DNA of 64,000 bases from Mangrovibacterium diazotrophicum (lineage in GTDB: Bacteria; Bacteroidota; Bacteroidia; Bacteroidales; Prolixibacteraceae): positions 496,001-560,000 of the forward strand of contig NZ_RAPN01000001.1 of the NCBI RefSeq assembly GCF_003610535.1. Reading direction: 5' to 3'. Each line of letters starts with the position of its first letter. Within the stretch, counting starts at the first letter, position 1. This document shows, piece by piece, positions 1,687 to 23,049 of this stretch. A program made the translations under genes and the position numbers. The notes below the pieces were generated by a model. That model worked only from the letters and a program-made list of their open reading frames with translations. It was not told the origin of the DNA and did not search any database.

Positions 1687-2277
1687 CTATTGATTCCAAA
1701 CCAGATCACAAGCATCTGCAGGCATCCAGTGCCTGTCTTTCCCATCCCACTTCACATTGCAGCCAATTGGGTTAGTTACCGGAACCGATATTTCTTTTCC
1801 ACTGGTCAATTCCTCTAAGGTACGTTCCAGGTCATTCACAGTCATCTTCGACGTATCTCTAGGGCTGTCTACAGCCCGCCCGGTGTAAACCAACTTCCGA
1901 TCCGAATCGAAAACATAAAAATGGGGTGTGCGTAAAGCTCCGTACGCCAACGCAATATCCTGACTCTCATCATACAAATAGGTCCAGGGGAAGTTAAACT
2001 CTTCCATCCGTTTTACCATGTGTGGAAAATCATCGTCGGCATAGGTATTCTTACTATTCGAGTTGATGGCGACAAAACGCACTCCTTTATCTTTGAATTT
2101 CAGAACTGTTTCTCGAGTTACCTCGTCGCTTCCAATTACATACGGACAATGGTTACAAGTGAAGAAAATAACTAAATAGGGACTATCCCGGAAATCTTCC
2201 AATTGGTAATTTTTTCCGTCTGTTGCAGGCAAATTAAAAGGGATGGCCTGTTTCCCGATTTCTAATGTAAAACTCAT
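1687..2277 (-). CDS. Thioredoxin-fold (AhpC/TSA-like) protein
   Basis: This is a 196-residue cytosolic redoxin with no signal peptide. It opens with a peroxiredoxin/TlpA-like [18 protein letters not shown] segment. The active-site region near residue 41 reads [10 protein letters not shown], giving a CNHC dithiol followed by the Pro-Tyr typical of a family of redoxin-domain proteins. A cis-proline region ([10 protein letters not shown]) follows near residue 117. Two further cysteines near the C-terminus could be structural. The family is annotated as thioredoxin family, and the physiological substrate is unknown. The gene is upstream of the outer-membrane protein gene on the same strand, separated by 112 bp. 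Confidence 0.8.
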
Positions 2278-2560
2278 AGCTTTCTTTTTTCGATTATAAC
2301 AACATTAAAACCGGAATAGTTTCGACAAAAAACGAAAGCCATATTTCTTGGAAAAAAGAATGAATTCGAATGATAATCATCCCAAAATGACATAAATATT
2401 AACTAAAAAGCTTAAATAAGTGTCAAATTTGTAGCTCATTTTTAAAAATATCCACGCAGGTATTGGAAAATAAAAAAAAATTCTAGTAGTTTGGAACTAA
2501 CGAAATTTAATTCTCTAATTGTTGTTTAAACTTTGTAATCCTAAGTTAATAGCTTAAAAA

Positions 2561-2773
2561 ATGAAATCGAACAAGAACTCAAAAAAGAACTTCAAAACTT
2601 CTGATAATGAGAGAAATGACATCGGCAGCCAACACAGTAAAGGTGCAAAAAAAGACAGGAGTGGCAAAAAGCGCTTATCGATCTATGACGAATTTGATGA
2701 AGAAGATCTGGATATGATGAATTATAAGCGCGACGACGATGATTTTGAAGACGAAGAAGATGACGAGGATTAG
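2561..2773 (+). CDS. Small highly charged hypothetical protein
   Basis: A 70-residue ORF on the plus strand. The first 40 residues are Lys/Asn/Ser rich and basic, and the last 30 are almost entirely Asp/Glu (YDEFDEEDLDMM then runs of Asp and Glu to the end). Protein-like organisation and a stop only 28 bp from the convergent dehydrogenase argue for a real gene, but low complexity makes chance possible. No family is recognised; the basic-then-acidic layout suggests a disordered protein. A near match to the -7 element (TAAACTTTG, one base too long) lies about 25 bp upstream. Confidence 0.45.
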   Translation: MKSNKNSKKNFKTSDNERNDIGSQHSKGAKKDRSGKKRLSIYDEFDEEDLDMMNYKRDDDDFEDEEDDED

Positions 2774-2801
2774 TTCCTGTCATTTTCTAATCACGGTCTA
2801 G

Positions 2802-3764
2802 CTAATTTGGACTATTAACTACATTTTGAGGATTATTCGCCTGATAAGCCTCAAAATTAGCTGCAAGAATTTCCATCAATCTCTTGCGGGCTTCAACTGT
2901 TGACCATGCTATATGCGGCGTTATATAGCAGTTCTTAGCTGTCAATAACGGATTACTTTTTAAAGGTGGTTCTGTCGAGAGAACATCCAGACCAGCTGCT
3001 GCCAACTTTTCGCTATTCAGTGCGTCTGCCAAATCCTGTTCGTTAATCAATGGTCCTCTGCCCGTATTGATTAGCACGGCACCCTTTTTCATTTGGTTAA
3101 ATTTGTCCCGATTCATAAATTCCCGGTTCTCTTCCATCAACGGGCAATTCAAACTAATAAAATCCGCAGTCCGAATCAACTCTTCCAATTCTACCTGGCG
3201 ATAAGCATCCGGCACGTCTTTTTTGAGCGAGCGATTCTGAAAAATCACCTTCATTCCAAAAGCACTGGCAATTTCAGCAACTTTCTTCCCAATCTTTCCA
3301 AATCCAACAATGCCGATGGTTTTTCCGGCTAATTCCATCTGCGGGCTCAACGTAAATGAGAAGTCAACACTTTTGGTCCACGCGCCCTCTCTTACACTAG
3401 CGGCATGCAAAGCCAATTGATTGGAAATATTCAGAATGAAAGAAAACACAAGTTGCGCAACTGAATCTGCGCTGTAGGCAGGAATATTGGTTACCGTGAT
3501 CGCTGCGCTATTCGCAGCTTCTAAATCCACAACGTTATACCCGGTCGCCATAACTCCAATGTATCTCAATTCGGGCAATTTGTTGATGACTTCCCTACTC
3601 AGAATAACTTTATTAGTAAATAAAGCCGTAGCTCCTTTCGCTCGTTCCAACAATTCCACGTTACTCGTTCTTTCGTAAACCTGCAAATCCCCAAGCTTTT
3701 CAATTGCATCCCAACTGAGATCTCCGGGATTGAGTGTGTAACCGTCTAAAACAACAATTTTCAT
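2802..3764 (-). CDS. D-2-hydroxyacid dehydrogenase (NAD-dependent, glycerate dehydrogenase-like)
   Basis: A 320-residue cytosolic oxidoreductase that should reduce a 2-keto acid (such as hydroxypyruvate or glyoxylate) with NAD(P)H. The Rossmann motif GIVGFGKIGKKVAEIA is near residue 153. The catalytic triad regions are present in order: Arg in INTGRGPLI (near 237), Glu in STEPP (near 268) and His in TPHIAWST (near 287). The length matches the family. The closest match I can suggest is glycerate dehydrogenase/hydroxypyruvate reductase, but substrate specificity cannot be read from the sequence. It is convergent with the small acidic gene and separated by 51 bp from the lipoprotein gene on the same strand. 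Confidence 0.85.
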   Translation of the reverse strand: MKIVVLDGYTLNPGDLSWDAIEKLGDLQVYERTSNVELLERAKGATALFTNKVILSREVINKLPELRYIGVMATGYNVVDLEAANSAAITVTNIPAYSADSVAQLVFSFILNISNQLALHAASVREGAWTKSVDFSFTLSPQMELAGKTIGIVGFGKIGKKVAEIASAFGMKVIFQNRSLKKDVPDAYRQVELEELIRTADFISLNCPLMEENREFMNRDKFNQMKKGAVLINTGRGPLINEQDLADALNSEKLAAAGLDVLSTEPPLKSNPLLTAKNCYITPHIAWSTVEARKRLMEILAANFEAYQANNPQNVVNSPN

Positions 3765-3815
3765 TCGTGCATTTATTTAGAAGTGGAGCGAATTTAAACA
3801 AAAATACACGAAAGG

Positions 3816-4139
3816 TTATTTCGTGTATTGAATATCTAAACTGTCAAGTTCGTGTATCGTTATGGCGGGATTTTGCCTTTTCACTATTTTCTTCAGAACC
3901 AACCTCCCCGCTTTCATGGCATCCTCTTCACTTTTGAAGGTTTGATGTCCGGATACAGCCGGGATATAAGGTTGATTGATGTAGACGGAAGTGTCTTTCA
4001 AAATCTGGTATCCCCATCCACCATCTGCCTGCTGTGTGCTCTGAACTCCAACCTTTATTTTCGGCTGGCATGAGCAAAAAAATACTCCTGAAAAAATCAG
4101 GAGTATTTTGAGGTATCTTTTAATTTCCGTTGTCGTCAT
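3816..4139 (-). CDS. DUF4907-type lipoprotein
   Basis: About 107 residues from the ATG at 4137-4139. The signal peptide ends in VFFCSC, so the protein is probably lipidated at one of the two cysteines. The mature part contains GWGYQIL, INQPYIPAV and a DAMKAGRLVLKKI helix, and ends with ITIHELDSLDIQY, which I recognise as the DUF4907 pattern. The start overlaps the end of the kelch gene by 20 bp, so the two are probably translationally coupled. An intrinsic terminator sits inside the signal-peptide codons (see 4076-4107). The open frame extends 13 codons upstream, but MTTTEIKRYLK gives the normal positive N-region. Confidence 0.7.
   Translation of the reverse strand: MTTTEIKRYLKILLIFSGVFFCSCQPKIKVGVQSTQQADGGWGYQILKDTSVYINQPYIPAVSGHQTFKSEEDAMKAGRLVLKKIVKRQNPAITIHELDSLDIQYTK
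4076..4107 (-). terminator. Intrinsic terminator inside the DUF4907 signal-peptide codons
   Basis: A perfect inverted repeat, AATACTCCTGA (4081-4091) and TCAGGAGTATT (4097-4107) with a five-base loop, is followed on the minus strand by a run of T (complement of 4076-4080, extending the T pair of the stem). It begins 12 bp after the kelch stop codon. The same bases encode the KILLIFSGVFF part of the downstream lipoprotein's signal peptide. Confidence 0.7.
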
Positions 4140-5214
4140 CGTCTTGTTCAGCGTTCGGATCAAATCGCCAGATATCATCGAAGTAGTAACTACTGTTTTG
4201 ACCTGTAGTCACATATCCCATATCGTTGATTGTGAATGCTACTGCATTGTAACGAGATGAACCTTCGAAACCTGTTTTCTCAACCCACAAGTCTGTTGAT
4301 GGGTTATATTCCCAAACGACAGCACCTGAAGAGTTTTTACCACCGGTTGCAACGTATCCTTTACCACCGCTTGTAAATGCTACACCGTTGTTTCTAACGA
4401 TATCATCATAATCGTCATCGAAATCATCATCAGTCGCATCAGTGATTGATCTTAATTTTGTCCAAGAATCATCAGTTGCGTTGTATTTCCAGAAGTCACT
4501 TACATAAGTACCGTTGTTAATACCGGTAGCTACATATGCTTCGTCACTGATCACAAAAGCAACAGCATCTGTACGTTTAGAACCACCAATCGCAGTCTTT
4601 TCAGCCCAAGCTTGAGTTGAAGGATCGTAAGCATAGAAATCTTTCAAAATGTTACCGTCACCATCAGTACCACAACCAACGTAACCAACATCGTTCAAAG
4701 TGAAAGCAACTGCTCCTTCACGCCCTACAACATCAGGACTGTTTACGTTGTCGCTCTGCAAGTCTGCAATCTGAGTCCAAGCATTTGAACTTGGATCATA
4801 TTCGTAGAAGTCTTTCAAACGAACTTTTACAGTTCCGTCGAAACCTGTACCAACGTATAATTTATCATCTGCAGCAAATGAAACGGCATTTGTTCTGGCA
4901 GCTCCAGGGAAGTCAGCAATTTGCGACCACTGATCTCTGTCGGCGTCATATGTCCAGAAGTCTGTTAAACGATCATCGTTTGAATCCAATCCAGTTCCCA
5001 TGTAGCCCAAGGTTCCAACAGCAACTCCGGTAGCACTGGTTCTAGGTACTCCGTTGAAGTCCGAAAGCTTAACCCAGTTTCCAACTAAATCGTCATCATC
5101 ATCACCACTACACGAAACTAATGGTAATATAATTGAGAGTACAAGCCCGATTTTTATAAACCGAACCGAACGTGTATGCACAAAGAAATTTTTTAGAATC
5201 ATTTGCTTAATCAT
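4120..5214 (-). CDS. Kelch-repeat lipoprotein, probably surface exposed
   Basis: A 364-residue protein with a lipoprotein signal (LPLVSC) followed at once by SGDDDDD. In Bacteroidota, acidic residues right after the lipidated Cys are known to direct surface export. The remainder is about six kelch repeats of roughly 50 residues, each with an AVAF...GYVGTG core and a D-W-YDP-W-hydrophobic strand, which should fold into one beta-propeller. Between repeats there is a very acidic insert near residue 264 (TDDDFDDDYDDI) that could bind calcium. No enzymatic motif is visible. The second Met (5202) is an equally good start given the promoter element at 5230-5237. It forms a unit with the DUF4907 gene. 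Confidence 0.85.
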   Translation of the reverse strand: MIKQMILKNFFVHTRSVRFIKIGLVLSIILPLVSCSGDDDDDLVGNWVKLSDFNGVPRTSATGVAVGTLGYMGTGLDSNDDRLTDFWTYDADRDQWSQIADFPGAARTNAVSFAADDKLYVGTGFDGTVKVRLKDFYEYDPSSNAWTQIADLQSDNVNSPDVVGREGAVAFTLNDVGYVGCGTDGDGNILKDFYAYDPSTQAWAEKTAIGGSKRTDAVAFVISDEAYVATGINNGTYVSDFWKYNATDDSWTKLRSITDATDDDFDDDYDDIVRNNGVAFTSGGKGYVATGGKNSSGAVVWEYNPSTDLWVEKTGFEGSSRYNAVAFTINDMGYVTTGQNSSYYFDDIWRFDPNAEQDDDDNGN

Positions 5215-5548
5215 TATTCAGTTTGGCCGCAAACATAAGTGGTTAACGATATCTAAAAAAAAATGATAGACGAACAGGCTATTTTTTTATAGAAAATTCA
5301 AATATGTCCATATAATTGCCCCGTTTATAGATAAAATTCAAGAATTAGTTAAAATAATTTTCAAATTTTAACAATACTTAAGCGATAAACACTATTAATT
5401 GGCCTTTCGTCGATACTTTTTGTCGTTTCATAGACATTAAAAAATATTTAGTCTATATTTCTTTTGGGAACACCAACAATAGGCTTGCTTTGCAGCCGAA
5501 GGGATCTTTTCTTTAACTCTTGTATACAAACAATCATTCTACTTTTAT
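5215..5548. other. Divergent intergenic region between kelch and DUF4270 genes
   Basis: This AT-rich 334-bp region separates two divergently transcribed envelope lipoprotein genes and must hold both promoters. Besides the exact -7 match for the minus strand at 5230-5237, the plus strand has only near matches (for example TATATTTC around 5454-5461). I see no coding potential and no terminator. Confidence 0.5.
5230..5237 (-). promoter_or_regulatory. Candidate -7 element for the kelch/DUF4907 genes
   Basis: On the minus strand the bases read TATGTTTG, an exact match to the Bacteroidota -7 consensus TAnnTTTG. No clear TTG -33 element is seen. Transcription from here would leave only about 10-20 nt of leader before the kelch start. 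Confidence 0.45.
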
Positions 5549-6886
5549 ATGATTAAAAATCGTCTTTTGGTATTCGTTTGGGCCGTTCTACTAGCTTCAT
5601 GCAGTACCGATGTTGGAAATTTTCAGATTGGTGAAGACCTTGTCGACAAGCAATCTACTATTTTAATGACCGACAGTTTCTCTGTAAAATTTTCCACAGT
5701 GGTCATGGACTCCATTGCAACCTCGGACCCTACGGTAGCTTTGGTCGGAAAATACGAAAACGATCAGATAGGAACAACAGAATTGAAGCACTATTTCAAT
5801 TTTGACAGATCTAGTGATATTTCCTCTATATTAGATAATACCGGTACTAAAATTGAGATTCTCGATTCTTTAACCTTAAAGTTGAAATACACAGGATTTA
5901 ATATCGGTGACACAACACAAACATTTACCATCGAATTGCACCGTCTTGCAAAAGAACTGGAACTTCAGGATGTGGGTTCTACAACCGACTACCTTTTCAA
6001 TATTAGTTCATTTCCTTACGACGAGACTCCTTTAGCAACCTACAGCTTCACTCCGTACCCGAACATTGATGACAGTGTCGAGTTTAGGATTGACGACACC
6101 TTCGCGGAAACGCTATTCGAGCAATTCGTCAATTCGGCAGACTCGGTATCGTCGAATGAATATTTTAACTCTTATTTAAGAGGTTTTGTTTTGGTTGCTC
6201 CCGAAGCCAATGCTGTGCTAGGTTTCGACACCGATGAAGGTATTCAAATGGTTATGTATACCCACATTGTAGCGGCAGACGTTACTGAAAACGAATATGA
6301 CTTTGATCTGACGACTGAAAATACAAACTTCAACCAGTCAATCGCCGACCGAACCGGGTCTTTATTTGAGAATCTGGTAGAACGAACCACCGCAGTGTCG
6401 TCGACTGACGCCGATGGTCTGGCATACACGCAAGGGAGTACCGGGGTTGCTTGCCGACTCGATTTCCCAACCATAAACGAAGTATTTACATTAGAAGATC
6501 ACATTTTAATAAAAGCGGAGTTGATACTTATCCCGGCTGCGGAGAATAATTACCGTGATCTACCTTCTTCGTTGATCTTCTACACATCCAACAAGACCAA
6601 CAAGCTTGGAGACAACCTGACTGTCACATCGTCGTCGGGTACAGAAACAGCGGTGACTGCGACTTTGGTTTCCAATTACCTTACCGGAACGTTCTACTAC
6701 GTAGCCGACCTGTCAACCTATTTCTTAACAGAATTATCAGATTATTATTACGATACAAATATCGGTTTGTTGGTGATGTTCCCGAGTACCGATTGGTACA
6801 ACAAATCACAACTGTTGCTTTTCAGTGACAGCAAAGTCAGCCAATTATCTCCGAAGTTGAACCTTTATTTTCTAAAAAATGAGTAA
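5549..6886 (+). CDS. DUF4270 lipoprotein
   Basis: A 445-residue lipoprotein whose signal ends in LLASC, followed by STDVGNFQIGEDLV, the characteristic start of DUF4270 proteins. The rest alternates beta-rich segments with conserved-looking features such as TVALVGKYENDQIGTTE (residues about 65-80) and a C-terminal LLVMFP/LLLFSDSK region. It is presumably anchored to the outer membrane. The function of the family is unknown. The stop overlaps the next gene by 8 bp (ATGAGTAA), so the two are cotranscribed and probably coupled. It is divergent from the kelch/DUF4907 pair, and I treat the four genes as one envelope module. Confidence 0.8.
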   Translation: MIKNRLLVFVWAVLLASCSTDVGNFQIGEDLVDKQSTILMTDSFSVKFSTVVMDSIATSDPTVALVGKYENDQIGTTELKHYFNFDRSSDISSILDNTGTKIEILDSLTLKLKYTGFNIGDTTQTFTIELHRLAKELELQDVGSTTDYLFNISSFPYDETPLATYSFTPYPNIDDSVEFRIDDTFAETLFEQFVNSADSVSSNEYFNSYLRGFVLVAPEANAVLGFDTDEGIQMVMYTHIVAADVTENEYDFDLTTENTNFNQSIADRTGSLFENLVERTTAVSSTDADGLAYTQGSTGVACRLDFPTINEVFTLEDHILIKAELILIPAAENNYRDLPSSLIFYTSNKTNKLGDNLTVTSSSGTETAVTATLVSNYLTGTFYYVADLSTYFLTELSDYYYDTNIGLLVMFPSTDWYNKSQLLLFSDSKVSQLSPKLNLYFLKNE

Positions 6887-8144
6887 GAGAACCATCCCTG
6901 TTAGCCTATTTGCCCTCACCTTGGGCTTTCTTTTCATGCAACCAATTGCAGGGAAGGCACAAAACAATACAAATTCACCGTACTCGATGTACGGTTTAGG
7001 AGAGTTAAAATCGCAGCTAAACCCGGTCAACTCGGCCATGGGAGGAGCTGGTTACGGGATGACTTCCTCTAATTTTGTCAATACACTGAACCCTGCTTCT
7101 TATGCGGGAATCGACAGCTTATCGTTCATTTTCGATACCGGAGTAGACGGTAAATATTCGACATTTAAATCGCAGGGCGAAACTGCAAGTTTGAAGGACG
7201 CGAATTTCAGCTACCTGGCTATTGGCTGGAGAGTAAGCAACAAGTTTGCTGCTGGATTCGGGTTGAATCCTTTCAGCTCGACTGGATACGAAATCAATAC
7301 AACATCTGAAATTGAAGGTGTGTATGAAAGTGACTATGCAATGAATATTATCGGTTCAGGAGACATCAGCCGTGCATATGCAGCTGTATCTTATTCCTTG
7401 CTCGATAATTTATCACTGGGCTTTAAAACATCCTTTTTGTTCGGATCACTCTCGCAAACGCAATATCACAATTTATCGACCATTGGAAGTAATTCGATTT
7501 ATTACGAAACGACGAATTATTTTCACAACTTCTACTTTGAATTTGGTGCTCAGTACGCTTTCAAAGTAAAGAACTACAATGTTAGCGTCGGTGCGATTTA
7601 CAACCCGGGACAACGCCTGGTAACAAAAGAAGACTACCAAATTTACAACTCAGCAGGTACTATCCTGGATGAAGATTCTCAAGACAACAACGACTTCTCC
7701 ATTCCATCTGAGTTTGGTATTGGTATTGCGGTCGACAATAACAAAAACTGGCTTTATGCTTTGGACGCCGGTATGCAAAAATGGTCTGATTACGACTATA
7801 AGCTAAGCGGCGTTAAATTGAAAAACAATCCTTACGTAAGAACAGGGTTGCAATATACACCCAGCACTAATTTCCTGGCCAGCTTCTTCAAACGGGTGAA
7901 TTACCGCGTTGGGTTCCAATTTGCGAAATCGTACCTGGATTTGAGAGGAGTTCAACTCGACGAATACAACGGTTCGTTTGGTTTGGGTTTACCAATCCGC
8001 AACGGCAAATCGCGTGTAGACGTGAGTGTTGAAGTTGGTACAAAAGGAACGACTGCCAGTCGGTTAATTCAAGAGAACTTTGTGCGGATGCGCCTTGGCT
8101 TCTCAATGCAAGACCTTTGGTTCCAGATGCGGAAGTTCAACTAA
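6879..8144 (+). CDS. FadL/PorV-like outer-membrane protein
   Basis: A 421-residue protein with signal peptide MSKRTIPVSLFALTLGFLF...GKAQ. The mature part begins NNTNSPYSMYGLGELKSQLNPVNSAMGG, with the NSAMGGAG motif seen in FadL-like and PorV-like 14-stranded barrels. It continues with many amphipathic strands and ends in LGFSMQDLWFQMRKFN. It should be an integral outer-membrane barrel, perhaps a hydrophobic-compound channel or a partner of the DUF4270 lipoprotein whose gene it overlaps. Assignment to a transport substrate is not possible. Confidence 0.75.
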   Translation: MSKRTIPVSLFALTLGFLFMQPIAGKAQNNTNSPYSMYGLGELKSQLNPVNSAMGGAGYGMTSSNFVNTLNPASYAGIDSLSFIFDTGVDGKYSTFKSQGETASLKDANFSYLAIGWRVSNKFAAGFGLNPFSSTGYEINTTSEIEGVYESDYAMNIIGSGDISRAYAAVSYSLLDNLSLGFKTSFLFGSLSQTQYHNLSTIGSNSIYYETTNYFHNFYFEFGAQYAFKVKNYNVSVGAIYNPGQRLVTKEDYQIYNSAGTILDEDSQDNNDFSIPSEFGIGIAVDNNKNWLYALDAGMQKWSDYDYKLSGVKLKNNPYVRTGLQYTPSTNFLASFFKRVNYRVGFQFAKSYLDLRGVQLDEYNGSFGLGLPIRNGKSRVDVSVEVGTKGTTASRLIQENFVRMRLGFSMQDLWFQMRKFN

Positions 8145-8154
8145 TAAGTTGAAC
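8135..8154. terminator. Possible bidirectional hairpin between convergent genes
   Basis: GTTCAACT-AATA-AGTTGAAC is a perfect 8-bp stem with a 4-base loop spanning the stop codon of the outer-membrane protein gene, 8 bp from the stop of the convergent response regulator. There is no T-run, so terminator function is uncertain. Confidence 0.35.
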
Positions 8155-8161
8155 CCGCAGT

Positions 8162-8890
8162 TTAAAGTGTAAAACGGTTGATAACCGAGCTTTGGAAATC
8201 GCTTTTGTAGTTATCGCCTACCGGGATCCAGCGATCGTGGATAATAATCCGGTTTTTCGTAACTGACTTAATCTTGTTGGTATTCACAATAAAAGATTTA
8301 TGAACTCTTAAAAAATGGCTTGACGGTAAACTGTCGGCCATTTTTTTCAGGGAATTAAGCGTAATAATCGGCTTGTCTTCATTCTGAATATAAATCTTCA
8401 CGTAGTCCTTCAATCCTTCAATATAAAGTACCTGATTGAGCTGAATTTTGACAGATTTGTAGTCCGATTTCACCATGATGAAATCCTGTTCAGCATCCGA
8501 ATTCTCGCTGATCTCTTCCCGCTTAACTTTCCGGTTGGACGCAAACAGCTGATAGGCCTTATTTGCAGACCTCAGAAAGCGTTTAAATGGTATTGGCTTA
8601 AGAAGATAATCAACCGCATTCAATTCGAACGCTTCCAGGGCGTATTCTGAATAAGCAGTTGTGAATATAAACATCGGCTTTGTGTCGAGGCTGCTGATAA
8701 ATTCGACTCCTGACACGTTGGGCAAATGAATATCCAAAAAAATCAGATCAATACTTGTTTTCTGAAGGATCTCTAACGCTTCGAAAACCGAGCTGCATTT
8801 TTTTTCCAGTTTCAAAAACGGGATATGCGAGATGTAATCTTCCAATATTTGTTGTGCCAACGGTTCGTCGTCGATTATGATACACTTCAT
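8162..8890 (-). CDS. LytTR-family response regulator
   Basis: A 242-residue two-component regulator. The receiver domain (1-120) has the acidic pocket IIDDEP at 5-10, the phospho-acceptor Asp53 in LIFLDIHLP, and Lys near 108 in LLKPIPFKRF. The C-terminal LytTR DNA-binding domain (about 142-240) begins DYKSVKIQL and contains HFLRVHKSFIVNTNKI and the IPVGDNYK segment typical of the family. Its ATG overlaps the kinase stop by four bases (ATGA), so the pair is one operon and they are cognate partners. It probably controls a few promoters; targets cannot be read from the window. Confidence 0.92.
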   Translation of the reverse strand: MKCIIIDDEPLAQQILEDYISHIPFLKLEKKCSSVFEALEILQKTSIDLIFLDIHLPNVSGVEFISSLDTKPMFIFTTAYSEYALEAFELNAVDYLLKPIPFKRFLRSANKAYQLFASNRKVKREEISENSDAEQDFIMVKSDYKSVKIQLNQVLYIEGLKDYVKIYIQNEDKPIITLNSLKKMADSLPSSHFLRVHKSFIVNTNKIKSVTKNRIIIHDRWIPVGDNYKSDFQSSVINRFTL

Positions 8891-20088: not shown

Positions 20089-20856
20089 TCAACGGTTGCG
20101 TAACTGCCGAATTTCCTCTTTCATCTCCGACAGAATATCCGACAGGCGGCTCACTTCTAAATGATTGGGCTGTGGTAAGTTGAAACTTAAAACACCCTCA
20201 GCTTTCCAGATTTCAAGCACATCCTCTGCGTCAACAGCATAAGGCTCATATTCAGGATTATCTGATTTCAGTAAAAAACGGCTATCACCCTGACGATAAA
20301 CCCGCTTGTAAACCAAACCTGCATCTTTCGTAATCAACACATAGGTTTGGCCGTCTCTCAAATCATCCAACGATTCAACAAACTGGCAAAACATATAAGC
20401 TCCAGGCTGCACCGGCAACATACTGTCGCCTTTTAGCTGGAAGACACGATACGTTTTTCCCGGCGATAATTCGGGAACCGGCATATTGAATGCGGGCAAC
20501 TGCCCGATGTATTCCGGATCAGCAAAACCATTCAAATAACCGGCGGAAGCCTTGACCGGAACAATCGGAATCAACTCTTCATTTTCTGCATTAACGACAA
20601 TCGGCAGAATCTTCAAACCTCCGATTGACGGCACATTCGCATATTTTTCCTTACTTAAATCATTCCGAATAAGTTGATCTAAACTCAAATCAAAATTCAA
20701 TGCAATTTGAACAAGCGTGGCGATTTTTGGCGTTGCCCTTCCCTCTTCATACGCACCAATATGTGAGCGTTTCAACCCTAATTTATCGGCTAAATCCTGC
20801 TGCGTCAATCGTGATTGCTGACGCAAATATTTCAAGTTATCGGACAAAAAATTCAT
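20089..20856 (-). CDS. HTH-S24 (LexA-like) transcriptional regulator
   Basis: A 255-residue regulator. An XRE-type helix-turn-helix lies at about 7-60 (SRLTQQDLADKLGLKRSHIGAYEEG). An S24 peptidase domain shows a possible self-cleavage site Ala105-Gly106 (KASAGYLNG), catalytic Ser145 in LKGDSMLP and Lys184 in LVYKRVY; the Ser-Lys spacing of 39 is close to LexA. A heptad-like tail (RLSDILSEMKEEIRQL) could aid dimerisation. It is divergent from the radical-SAM gene over 114 bp containing three similar palindromes (20859-20923), one just upstream of its own start, so it probably represses itself and the repair pair. RecA-stimulated cleavage is an inference. Confidence 0.85.
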   Translation of the reverse strand: MNFLSDNLKYLRQQSRLTQQDLADKLGLKRSHIGAYEEGRATPKIATLVQIALNFDLSLDQLIRNDLSKEKYANVPSIGGLKILPIVVNAENEELIPIVPVKASAGYLNGFADPEYIGQLPAFNMPVPELSPGKTYRVFQLKGDSMLPVQPGAYMFCQFVESLDDLRDGQTYVLITKDAGLVYKRVYRQGDSRFLLKSDNPEYEPYAVDAEDVLEIWKAEGVLSFNLPQPNHLEVSRLSDILSEMKEEIRQLRNR

Positions 20857-20858
20857 TC

Positions 20859-20923
20859 GCTAATATTTTTAGTCATCACTTTAAAATTAACTAATACTTT
20901 TAGCTAAAACTAATTTTATTAGT
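20859..20923. promoter_or_regulatory. Three-site operator array between S24 regulator and radical-SAM gene
   Basis: Three 15-bp sites fit ACTAAT-N3-ATTAGT: GCTAATATTTTTAGT at 20859-20873, ACTAATACTTTTAGC at 20890-20904, and the perfect palindrome ACTAATTTTATTAGT at 20909-20923. Start-to-start distances are 31 and 19 bp, about three and two helical turns. The first is 2 bp from the regulator start codon; the last touches the -7 element of the radical-SAM gene. Confidence 0.7.
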
Positions 20924-20930
20924 ATTTTTG
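20923..20930 (+). promoter_or_regulatory. -7 element of the radical-SAM operon
   Basis: TATTTTTG is an exact match to TAnnTTTG and overlaps the last base of the third operator, so a bound repressor would cover the promoter core. The predicted leader is about 35 nt. No clear -33 TTG is present. Confidence 0.55.
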
Positions 20931-20970
20931 AACAGTCGACTATGCAACAAGACGCTAAATATAGGCTATC

Positions 20971-22275
20971 ATGAAAGAAAATGTACTCGAAAAACTAAAA
21001 ATATTAGCAGATGCCGCCAAATATGACGTTTCGTGTGCATCGAGCGGCAATAACAGGAGTAACAAAGGTGGTATTGGAAACGCGGTGGCTTGTGGGATTT
21101 GCCATAGTTTTACTGATGACGGAAGGTGCGTCAGCCTTCTGAAAATGTTGATGACAAACCACTGCATTTACGATTGCGCTTATTGCATTAACCGACGAAC
21201 GAACGACCGCCCGCGAGCAACGATGTCCGTTCAGGAGGTGGTTGACCTGACGATCAACTTTTACCGCAGAAATTACATCGAAGGACTTTTTCTGAGTTCT
21301 GGGATCATTAAAAACGCAGATTTCACCATGGAACGCCTGATGCTCGTAGCGCGAAAGCTGAGACAAGAAGAGCGCTATCATGGCTACATTCATTTGAAAG
21401 CCATTCCGGGATCAAGCCCAGAATTAATCAGACAGGCCGGGCTATTCGCCGATCGTCTGAGTGTAAATATTGAAATCCCGACAGAACAGCAGCTTCAACG
21501 TTTGGCACCAGAGAAAACATTTTCATCGGTAATTCAACCGATGGAACAGATTAAAACCGGGATACAGCTCTACAAGGAAGACCGGCGAAAGTATCGCTTC
21601 GTGGATCCTTTCACACCTGCCGGCCAAAGCACACAGCTGATCGTTGGTGCCACACCGGAAAGCGATCGTCAAATTCTGGCTTTAGCCTCGGGCCTGTACC
21701 AGCACCAAAGTCTAAAGCGTGTTTATTACTCGGGATATTTACCCGTGAACGACTATGACAAGCGTCTGCCTGCGCTGCAATCACCACCATTGGTTCGCGA
21801 AAATCGCCTTTACCAAAGCGACTGGCTGATGCGTTTTTACCATTTTCAAGCCGATGAAATATTGAGTTCTGATCAACCATTCCTGGATCTTGAGATTGAC
21901 CCCAAGCTGGCTTACGCCATCCGAAATCTTCATCTATTCCCTGTGGATATCAATCGCGCCGACTATGAGATGATTCTTCGGGTTCCGGGCATTGGCGTGC
22001 AATCAGCCAAAATGATCGTGGATGCCCGTCGGTTCCGGAGGCTGAACAGTTATCACCTCAAACAAATCGGCGTAGTGATGAAACGAGCCCAATACTTCAT
22101 TACCTGTAATGAACTCCCGGCCCGTCGGGGCGACTGGGATCCAGATGTTTTGCGAAGTCACATCATTCATGAAAGCACTACAAAACGATGCAAAGCAGGC
22201 GATACGCAGCTAAGTTTATTTCATTTTCAACCACCTAAAAAGCAACCGGAATTGACTGTTCACTTCAAACAATAA
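20971..22275 (+). CDS. Putative DNA modification/repair radical SAM protein
   Basis: A 434-residue protein of a radical-SAM family that always occurs with the partner encoded next door (the TIGR03914-03916 group, some members fused to a uracil-DNA-glycosylase-like domain). The cluster motif is CIYDCAYC (Cys65, 69, 72). Further conserved-looking Cys occur at 22, 41, 44 and 53 (SCASSG, CGICHSF, GRC) and could hold a second cluster or metal. A helix-hairpin-helix near 330-350 (ILRVPGIGVQSAKMIVDARR) indicates non-specific DNA binding. Chemistry and substrate are unknown. It is expressed from an operator-controlled promoter with the next gene three bases downstream. Confidence 0.88.
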   Translation: MKENVLEKLKILADAAKYDVSCASSGNNRSNKGGIGNAVACGICHSFTDDGRCVSLLKMLMTNHCIYDCAYCINRRTNDRPRATMSVQEVVDLTINFYRRNYIEGLFLSSGIIKNADFTMERLMLVARKLRQEERYHGYIHLKAIPGSSPELIRQAGLFADRLSVNIEIPTEQQLQRLAPEKTFSSVIQPMEQIKTGIQLYKEDRRKYRFVDPFTPAGQSTQLIVGATPESDRQILALASGLYQHQSLKRVYYSGYLPVNDYDKRLPALQSPPLVRENRLYQSDWLMRFYHFQADEILSSDQPFLDLEIDPKLAYAIRNLHLFPVDINRADYEMILRVPGIGVQSAKMIVDARRFRRLNSYHLKQIGVVMKRAQYFITCNELPARRGDWDPDVLRSHIIHESTTKRCKAGDTQLSLFHFQPPKKQPELTVHFKQ

Positions 22276-22278
22276 AGC

Positions 22279-23049
22279 ATGGCAATTATCAGATACGACG
22301 GCACATTCGCAGGTTTTCTTACAGTAGTTTTCGAGTGTTACGCACGAAAGCTAAACCCTGCCGATATTTGTAAAGAAACGGCCTTTCAGGAAAGCTTGTT
22401 TGGCGAAAGCATCCGTATCGAAACCGATGAAAAAAAAGCGCATCGTGTGTGGAAAGGCTTTCAGCAAAAGCTTCACCCTCGCAACAGGGAACTGCCTTTT
22501 CGAACTTTTTTATCAGAAGAGAAAGGGATAGAAATGCGCCTGTATCGTTTTATGCGTCGGACCTTTGACTCCAATAAGCGCATCGATACCGATTTTGCAG
22601 ATTCAGATGTGCTGGCGTTAAAAAAAATTGAGCGACAGGTGATGCGCGAATCTATGCGAATACTGGAGTTTCTGCGCTTTCAGCAAACAATCGACAACAT
22701 TTACTTCGCTGCCGTCGAGCCCCAGTACGACGTTCTTCCCTTCACCATCGATCATTTTCGAAAGCGTTTTGCTGATCAACAATGGATCATCTATGATTTG
22801 AAACGAGACTATGGATTCTTCTACGACCTTCAAGAAGTGCAGGAAATCAACCTGAACGAAAAATCATTCTCGACACACGATGGGAAACTTGCTGAAAACA
22901 TTGTGATGGAAGACGAATTGCTTTACCAAACTTTGTGGAAAAATTACTTCAATCACGTCAATATAGAAGAGCGGAAGAATGCGAAACTTCAACGGCAACA
23001 CATGCCTCGGAGATACTGGAAATTTCTTCCAGAGAAAAATCAGGCATAA
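22279..23049 (+). CDS. Radical-SAM-linked DNA metabolism partner protein
   Basis: A 256-residue protein of the family that accompanies the preceding radical-SAM enzyme (TIGR03915-like). The opening IIRYDGTFAGFLTVVFE is diagnostic. The central PQYDVLPFTIDHFRKRFADQ and WIIYDLKRDYGFFYDL follow, and the C-terminal MPRRYWKFLPE is typical. There are no obvious catalytic motifs or membrane segments. In some genomes this domain is fused to a uracil-DNA-glycosylase-like domain; that part is absent here. The start lies 3 bp after the stop of the radical-SAM gene, so the two are cotranscribed. A terminator follows at once. Confidence 0.85.
   Translation: MAIIRYDGTFAGFLTVVFECYARKLNPADICKETAFQESLFGESIRIETDEKKAHRVWKGFQQKLHPRNRELPFRTFLSEEKGIEMRLYRFMRRTFDSNKRIDTDFADSDVLALKKIERQVMRESMRILEFLRFQQTIDNIYFAAVEPQYDVLPFTIDHFRKRFADQQWIIYDLKRDYGFFYDLQEVQEINLNEKSFSTHDGKLAENIVMEDELLYQTLWKNYFNHVNIEERKNAKLQRQHMPRRYWKFLPEKNQA

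Follow-up and report, generated by a model that had tools for sequence, protein, structure and literature searches.

A non-canonical LexA of the CTAA-N5-TTAG type facing a radical-SAM/DUF4130 gene pair in Mangrovibacterium diazotrophicum: a likely private SOS switch

Results

Layout of the locus

We analysed a stretch of 64,000 nucleotides from Mangrovibacterium diazotrophicum (contig NZ_RAPN01000001.1, positions 496,001 to 560,000; hereafter the window), and within it a locus at positions 20089 to 23049 where the gene of a LexA-like regulator faces a gene pair encoding a radical S-adenosylmethionine (radical-SAM) protein and its DUF4130 partner. A previous reading of the letters alone (the sequence-only reading) had proposed that this regulator drives a DNA repair or modification pair, and the three open reading frames (ORFs) indeed lie at the coordinates and in the orientation that it gave, the regulator on the minus strand and divergent from the pair across a gap of 114 bp. 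The features of the locus are as follows.

20089..20856, minus strand: XRE/S24 regulator, 255 amino acids, whose PF01381 and PF00717 matches, residues and tree position fit a non-canonical LexA of the CTAA-N5-TTAG type
Within 20089..20856, minus strand: putative cleavage site Ala105-Gly106 and dyad Ser145/Lys184 of the regulator (67-row alignment)
20860..20872: predicted operator 1, CTAATATTTTTAG, CTAA-N5-TTAG, just upstream of the regulator start codon
20891..20903: predicted operator 2, CTAATACTTTTAG, CTAA-N5-TTAG
20910..20922: predicted operator 3, CTAATTTTATTAG, CTAA-N5-TTAG, abutting a -7-like element ahead of the radical-SAM gene
20923..20930, plus strand: TATTTTTG, which fits TAnnTTTG (from the sequence)
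20971..22275, plus strand: radical-SAM protein of TIGR03916, 434 amino acids, with CX3CX2C at Cys65/69/72 and further invariant Cys22, Cys44 and Cys53 (NCBIfam, alignment)
20995..21007: putative operator 4, in radical-SAM codons 9-13 (CTA AAA ATA TTA G), conserved at synonymous sites
22279..23049, plus strand: partner of TIGR03915/DUF4130, 256 amino acids, whose AlphaFold2 model (predicted local distance difference test, pLDDT, 93.8) has a weak DHH-superfamily-like fold (NCBIfam, Pfam, model)

We take TIGR03916 to be the same family as COG4277.

Identity of the regulator

The regulator fuses a CI-type helix-turn-helix (HTH_3, PF01381, 51.3 bits against a cut-off of 23) to an S24 peptidase domain (PF00717, 41.3 bits against 23.3). 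The cleavage site and dyad that the sequence-only reading had named are present, and in an alignment of 67 rows Gly106, Ser145 and Lys184 are invariant and position 105 is Ala in 65. In the tree of these rows the protein falls together with those from Pontibacter, Hymenobacter, Pedobacter and Mucilaginibacter at moderate support (91/88), the GGA-N5-TCC regulators being split off at 100/100. In its recognition segment, KRSHIGAYEEGRATPK, it is similar to the regulator of Pontibacter diazotrophicus, which has KRSLVGAYEEGRAEPK there. Canonical LexA (TIGR00498) has no match in the window's genome at E 0.001 and is not among the regulator's own NCBIfam matches; across 140 genomes of the window's family, Prolixibacteraceae, some match occurs in 33, mostly partial and over the peptidase part, and in 2 it exceeds the cut-off. 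RecA is present in the window's genome.

In those parts of Sanchez-Osuna et al. 2021 (PMC8565304) that bear on this question, the Bacteroidetes genomes searched are described as lacking LexA homologs and as using CI-like S24 repressors instead, which fall into two groups with operators CTAA-N5-TTAG and GGA-N5-TCC. Gel shifts with mutants showed there that CTAA-N5-TTAG is bound by a relative from Pontibacter actiniarum (WP_025606010.1). Mitomycin C induced those P. actiniarum genes that were assayed, a set that need not include COG4277, and likewise the tested genes in general, recA of one species excepted. The predicted regulons already list COG4277 together with the uracil-DNA glycosylase (UDG) COG1573. 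Since its domains, cleavage residues, motif and tree position all agree with the CTAA group by sequence, the window's regulator fits a member of this known kind and is not a new one. The LexA-like character assigned to it earlier stands; both the family and its link to COG4277 are already in print (PMC8565304).

As a separate observation, one family genome carries an island of about 10 kb (L184, G051:C15:16500-33000) with a canonical-LexA match over the cut-off, umuD-umuC, SRAP, dnaE-like and dinB-like genes and a non-canonical LexA; a canonical LexA is unexpected for the phylum.

Operators and promoter elements

The motif CTAAT-N4-TTAG gives five strand-matches in the window against 0.40 expected and no more than three in 100 shuffles, and all five fall at the regulator/radical-SAM locus. 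The sequence-only reading had mentioned neither the three CTAA-N5-TTAG palindromes of the gap nor the one within the radical-SAM gene. The -7 element of Bacteroidota promoters has the consensus TAnnTTTG. Of the 19 loci that have an upstream operator, the window among them, 12 have the nearest one abutting such an element exactly, 6 show one mismatch and 1 shows more; a scan for sigma-70 promoters returned no site. Because the palindrome at 20910-20922 abuts TAnnTTTG and that at 20860-20872 stands just before the regulator start codon, it follows that the predicted operators would repress both the regulator and the radical-SAM promoters. The composite CTAA-N5-TTAG-TATTTTYG matches 15 times in 14 of the 140 family genomes and once in the window's genome; of the family-wide matches, one (G079:C108) is not at a radical-SAM locus; it falls within an ORF and was taken as chance. 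Among the other CTAAT-N4-TTAG matches of the window's genome, no SOS gene was seen at L009, the sole one examined (L003, L008 and L010-L023 were left out).

Placement of the regulator in relatives

TIGR03916 was found over its cut-off in 79 of the 140 family genomes, and all 79 loci (the window and 78 fetched ones) were inspected. An adjacent, divergent regulator is present at 44 of them, 20 orthologous to that of the window (itself included) and 24 of a second type, and none lies on the radical-SAM strand, so that a regulator standing apart from the pair in nearly all relatives, which would have spoken against the earlier proposal, is not what this family shows. One further locus lacks the start of the radical-SAM gene, and 34 have no regulator in the fetched flank. 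These 34 include 19 of genus g2, four of g19, where the regulator either closes a umuC or SRAP operon, stands apart in one or was not found, and one of g7 with a regulator about 2.3 kb away beyond an insertion; two of the 34 flanks, one of them from g2, are too short. The partner accompanies the radical-SAM gene at 66 of 77 family loci (some flanks being short) and at 75 of 80 named loci taken across the phylum, the best-scoring of at least 591. Outside the family, 15 of these 80 have an upstream CTAA site without an adjacent regulator.

Several loci stand out on their own account. At L187 (G072:C34:74500-83500) genes are inserted between regulator and pair, one of which matches an AbiLi model (E 2.1e-48), perhaps a defence-type insertion into the locus. 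The radical-SAM genes at L127 (G097:C222) and L130 (G047:C6) are broken or internally deleted, with the regulator and its palindrome still beside them. At L077 (G115:C100) an orthologous regulator with two CTAA-N5-TTAG sites has no radical-SAM gene in the fetched stretch, and its divergent neighbour looks, by eye, like an RsmI-type methyltransferase.

Regulator clades and their palindromes

The palindromes change with the regulators. Of the 19 relatives' loci with the orthologous regulator, 18 carry CTAA-N5-TTAG, with 24 copies upstream and 17 inside the gene, and so does the window; all 24 loci of the second clade carry TGATA-N7-TATCA, one genus supplying 23 of them; TTGTTA-N7-TAACAA is present in 5 of 5 cases of the imuA-linked clade; and a third clade, of the GGA-N5-TCC type, fills the same slot in Flavobacteriaceae. 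The recognition segments of the orthologous and second-type regulators differ in line with these palindromes. In the 67-regulator tree, which includes 13 of the 24 second-type loci, the second type joins dinB-linked regulators in a well-supported set (100/98), and the approximately unbiased (AU) test rejects a single clade that would unite both types and the umuC-SRAP regulators (p 4e-8), the groups having been defined by neighbourhood and motif after the free tree was seen. The radical-SAM genes of both regulator types fall in one part of their tree (support 93, quick tree), apart from g2. The simplest reading of these trees would be that the cassette exchanged its repressor together with its operator within the family and that a GGA-type one was acquired separately in Flavobacteriaceae. 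A further palindrome, TGGC-N7-GCCA, found in 11 loci without an adjacent regulator, was rejected as an operator and taken as a coding by-product because it always stands at one codon position.

The site inside the radical-SAM gene

The fourth CTAA-N5-TTAG palindrome is embedded in codons whose choice is largely fixed. At loci of the CTAA system Leu9 is CTA in 24 of 25 and Leu12 is TTA in 24 of 25, against 10% and 14% at other conserved Leu positions, and in a ranking of 124 conserved degenerate positions by codon fixation these two take the top two places. The exact inner palindrome occurs in 0 of 24 TGATA-type loci, where the peptide is largely kept. Among the 72 genes of the radical-SAM tree, 20 have both sites, 1 the upstream site only, 4 the inner site only and 47 neither, a comparison that kinship reduces to three independent pairs, a number that does not allow a sign test. 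Outside the family the inner site is present in 2 of the 15 named loci with an upstream CTAA site, and 2 others have it alone. At two loci, L168 (G116, C383:1-6500) and L169 (G121, C460:25500-29185), it is the only exact site of the sequence retrieved, at a distance of 156 and 343 bp, respectively, upstream of divergently transcribed umuD-umuC genes, whose operon has the regulator as its last gene (preceded by SRAP in G116). Over 12 distinct spacings, the helical phasing between promoter operator and inner site was not significant (p about 0.11). Neither "intragenic" nor "coding region" appears in the main text of PMC8565304.

Related circuits elsewhere in the genomes

At E 0.001 the window's genome holds one further relative of the regulator (40% identity), which is divergent from imuA-imuB-dnaE2 with TTGTTA-N7-TAACAA between them (L176, C4:78000-97000, 1911-8362); the names of the three genes come from their neighbourhood and from visual inspection of the sequence, and for imuB from PF00817 as well. 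The fetched recA, dinB and imuA-imuB-dnaE2 stretches of this genome contain no exact CTAA-N5-TTAG, only exact sites having been scanned, and this absence supports a private circuit at the radical-SAM locus, although weaker sites may still be present. Across the family, we followed 22 distinct regulator genes away from the radical-SAM slot, a chosen part of the family matches, and 17 adjoin imuA, dinB-like or umuC/SRAP genes. Three genomes of g19 have CTAA-N5-TTAG at both umuD and an unlinked radical-SAM gene; G122 and G123 have their regulator elsewhere, in or beside an SRAP operon, and in G118, which is 81% complete, none was found.

The radical-SAM protein and its partner

The radical-SAM protein matches TIGR03916 (rSAM_link_UDG) at 644.4 bits against a cut-off of 343.5, the only NCBIfam family matched at E 0.001, and the SplB family model gave no match. 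Cys65/69/72 form the CX3CX2C motif, as had been read from the letters. The additional cysteines pointed out at the same time fared unevenly: Cys22, Cys44 and Cys53 are, like the three of the motif, invariant in 65 sequences, but only 17 of 31 retain Cys41. Because Cys22/44/53 are invariant beside Cys65/69/72, these sequences make a second metal site plausible. The helix-hairpin-helix also described for this protein is plausible but falls under the Pfam cut-off (HHH_3, 24.8 bits against 27), and the ComEA-related structure 2duy matches the C-terminal part at E 0.0043. The folds nearest to the model are general radical-SAM proteins, and the only solved structures that match at E 0.01 are two, both over short stretches. 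We found no study in the literature on the reaction of the TIGR03916/TIGR03915 pair.

The partner matches TIGR03915 (269.9 bits, cut-off 112.25) and DUF4130 (175.2 bits, cut-off 27). The top Foldseek match of its model in the PDB is the PAP phosphatase 8a8k (E 6.7e-4, probability 1.00, template modelling (TM) score 0.40), followed by PggH, the DHH domain of PF0399 and RecJ2, with Cdc45 lower; 8a8k and PggH we take to be DHH superfamily members. Several named DHH proteins are among the top matches in a viral structure library, in which no match reaches E 0.001, and the TM scores of these DHH-like matches do not exceed 0.43. A profile comparison of DUF4130 with DHH proteins gave no support, the NrnA-RecJ control itself reaching 18% with a set that included a 13-residue fragment and mechanically picked ORFs, some of them doubtful. 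In a Pfam scan of 59 rows DUF4130 was matched in all 59 and other models were scattered over one to three rows each, the best of them (E 1.1e-5, one row) being a helical-repeat model. The catalytic DHH motif carries conserved histidines, and no His is found among the 37 invariant or nearly invariant DUF4130 columns of 59 sequences. The model, a confident one, would be compatible with DUF4130 possibly being a degenerate DHH protein, and if that fold is right the phosphoesterase site has probably been lost, since no His is conserved. Cdc45 is such a degenerate, nucleic-acid-binding protein of the DHH type.

The link to UDG-like domains mentioned for the pair in the sequence-only reading is not borne out here by a UDG of the UdgX type. 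UdgX (TIGR03914) exceeds its cut-off in 0 of the 140 family genomes, with weaker matches in 10 and none in the window's genome, whose two PF03167 UDGs are both unlinked to the pair. A phage or defence origin of the pair was considered and dropped, there being no PHROG or PADLOC match.

Discussion

We consider it likely that the locus is a private SOS switch, that is, a damage-responsive repressor dedicated to the radical-SAM/DUF4130 pair. The dedicated, apparently self-cleaving LexA-like repressor already proposed from the letters is the best reading of the regulator, and fits the operators, the protease dyad, the absence of a canonical LexA match and the sister regulators at SOS cassettes. 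The CI-like, non-canonical LexA would bind the CTAA-N5-TTAG operators between the divergent genes, and probably also the inner site, and would thereby shut off its own gene and the radical-SAM/DUF4130 operon; such binding and repression, and induction by mitomycin C, would be expected by analogy with the published relatives. Upon DNA damage, RecA filaments would trigger self-cleavage at Ala105-Gly106 through Ser145/Lys184, a step that we infer because of the regulator's residues and its relatives. The promoters would then open and the pair would be made. The radical-SAM enzyme, whose [4Fe-4S] cluster would sit at Cys65/69/72 and which probably uses Cys22/44/53 for a second metal site, would, as we infer for its substrate and chemistry, act on a damaged or modified DNA base, and DUF4130 might serve as its nucleic-acid-handling partner.

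Several observations weigh against this interpretation. The adjacency of regulator and pair holds in the window's family but is a minority arrangement across the phylum, where only 6 of the 80 named loci have an adjacent regulator (five divergent GGA-type ones, from Flavobacteriaceae and a single Bacteroidia genome, and one on the same strand), with the reservation that 7 of the 80 had less than 1 kb of upstream sequence and that GGA-type regulators may escape the query. In genus g2 none of the 19 radical-SAM loci has a regulator in the fetched flank (561 bp long in one case), and six tested genomes of Bacteroides, Parabacteroides, Phocaeicola, Prevotella and other Bacteroidales gave no regulator match at E 1e-10; the pair can thus operate without it. 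One locus (L029) has the orthologous regulator and no exact operator, and CTAAT-N4-TTAG is not enriched genome-wide, with 24 strand-matches against 73 for the reversed pattern. Five of the 22 sister regulators (L077, L081, L082, L138, L139), and 7 of 10 regulators in named genera (3 of 10 having one), are without an SOS neighbour recognised by our queries. Finally, the radical-SAM model drops below pLDDT 50 at residues 44-47 and 63-76, around the presumed second metal site.

The regulator could instead be the general SOS repressor of the genome, acting on many unlinked genes, with the pair merely its neighbour. The CTAA motif does have large regulons in Hymenobacteraceae, Sphingobacteriaceae and Chitinophagaceae in the sections of PMC8565304 devoted to them, and in g19 it is common to umuD and an unlinked radical-SAM gene. 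In the window's genome, however, the fetched recA, dinB and imuA-imuB-dnaE2 stretches have no exact site, imuA has its own paralogous regulator with a different palindrome, and the composite with the -7-like element occurs once (counting exact sites, most other exact matches having been left out), so that we regard a general repressor as quite unlikely. That the regulator answers a signal other than RecA, as a phage-type or stress switch, strikes us as very unlikely. S24/XRE proteins with other signals exist, HdiR and heat shock being mentioned in PMC8565304, and the best PHROG match of the regulator is a phage repressor family; against this stand the cleavage residues kept in all 67 rows but for Ala105 in two, the translesion or SOS genes beside 17 of 22 sister regulators, and the mitomycin C induction of genes in the relatives' regulons, as far as PMC8565304 covers them.

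What the pair does, and what the inner site does, also admit other answers. Instead of repairing lesions, the pair might modify DNA, for instance at thymine: NCBI names the TIGR03916 family "DNA modification/repair", and a figure legend in PMC3765255 describes DUF4130 as a predicted enzyme related to mutagenesis and associated with radical-SAM proteins like SplB and with UDG, "which might modify thymines". A constant modification accords less well than repair or tolerance with regulation of the damage type and with the linkage to translesion polymerases, and the pair is without PADLOC or PHROG match; we think modification unlikely and would favour repair because of the damage-type regulation. 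As for the inner palindrome, it could be a by-product of the peptide LKILA or of a codon or RNA constraint near the start, or be bound without regulatory effect. LKILA is conserved in lineages without the regulator too, the palindrome occurs without an exact upstream site in two g2 genes (L117, L124), in Parabacteroides goldsteinii (L194) and in Hymenobacter (L230), and the counts above, three independent pairs and 2 of 15 named loci, are small. Moreover, in Streptomyces, according to the portion of PMC9380542 concerned with them, many intragenic LexA sites, lying more than 100 bp into genes, are bound, and yet the genes, dnaE2 excepted, do not respond to damage, which speaks against a regulatory role. 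The fixation of the Leu9 and Leu12 codons above all other degenerate positions, and the loss of the exact palindrome from all TGATA-type loci despite the largely kept peptide, argue the other way. A by-product or silent site is therefore doubtful, if less so than the other alternatives, and the inner palindrome, judged by its conservation in synonymous codons, is probably an operator used in repression.

Because 17 of 22 sister regulators adjoin imuA, dinB-like or umuC/SRAP genes, the SOS response of these bacteria looks split into private circuits. We tentatively put forward a wider picture, possible rather than probable, in which it is broken into parallel cassettes (radical-SAM/DUF4130, imuA-imuB-dnaE2, dinB-dnaE and umuDC-SRAP), each with its own non-canonical LexA and operator and able to swap both LexA clade and operator, with an operator inside the radical-SAM gene and DUF4130 as a degenerate, DHH-type nucleic-acid-binding partner. 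If this is true, the in-gene operator implies looping or a transcription roadblock. That a private damage-type switch has been filled by at least two clades, three with Flavobacteriaceae, suggests that the pair is needed after damage and that its unscheduled expression is costly; it also narrows the search for the substrate to damage-associated lesions and provides an inducible handle. A gene lineage served by different repressor-operator pairs, with a site held in synonymous codons as well, makes a clean test case for the splitting and rewiring of SOS networks.

Among known systems, UdgX/TIGR03914 is associated with TIGR03916 and TIGR03915, as the family names imply; the window has the same radical-SAM and partner families and no TIGR03914 protein. 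The spore photoproduct lyase SplB is a radical-SAM enzyme with CX3CX2C. The window's protein, also a radical-SAM protein, differs in belonging to a separate family and in its invariant Cys22/44/53; SplB is SOS-linked in several species (PMC8565304).

With the P. actiniarum-type LexA of the CTAA group, the window's regulator shares the CI-type HTH and S24 domain, the Ala-Gly/Ser/Lys residues, CTAA-N5-TTAG at its own promoter, the lack of a canonical LexA match and COG4277 in the predicted regulon. It differs from the CTAA group as described in PMC8565304 in lying divergently beside the radical-SAM/DUF4130 pair as an apparent private switch, in the extra in-gene site and in having DUF4130 rather than a UDG as the partner gene. 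What the sequences appear to add to that paper, as far as we found, is the adjacent divergent placement, several regulator clades in one slot, the inner site and the split circuits. Another close system is the SOS regulator of Elizabethkingia anophelis, which in the account that PMC8565304 gives of it belongs to the same family, lies opposite one SOS gene and has its own diverged operator, TTAC-AAATT-GTAA, with both the regulator and the error-prone polymerase induced by mitomycin C. There the target is a polymerase, whereas in the window it is the radical-SAM pair, one gene lineage served by different regulator clades.

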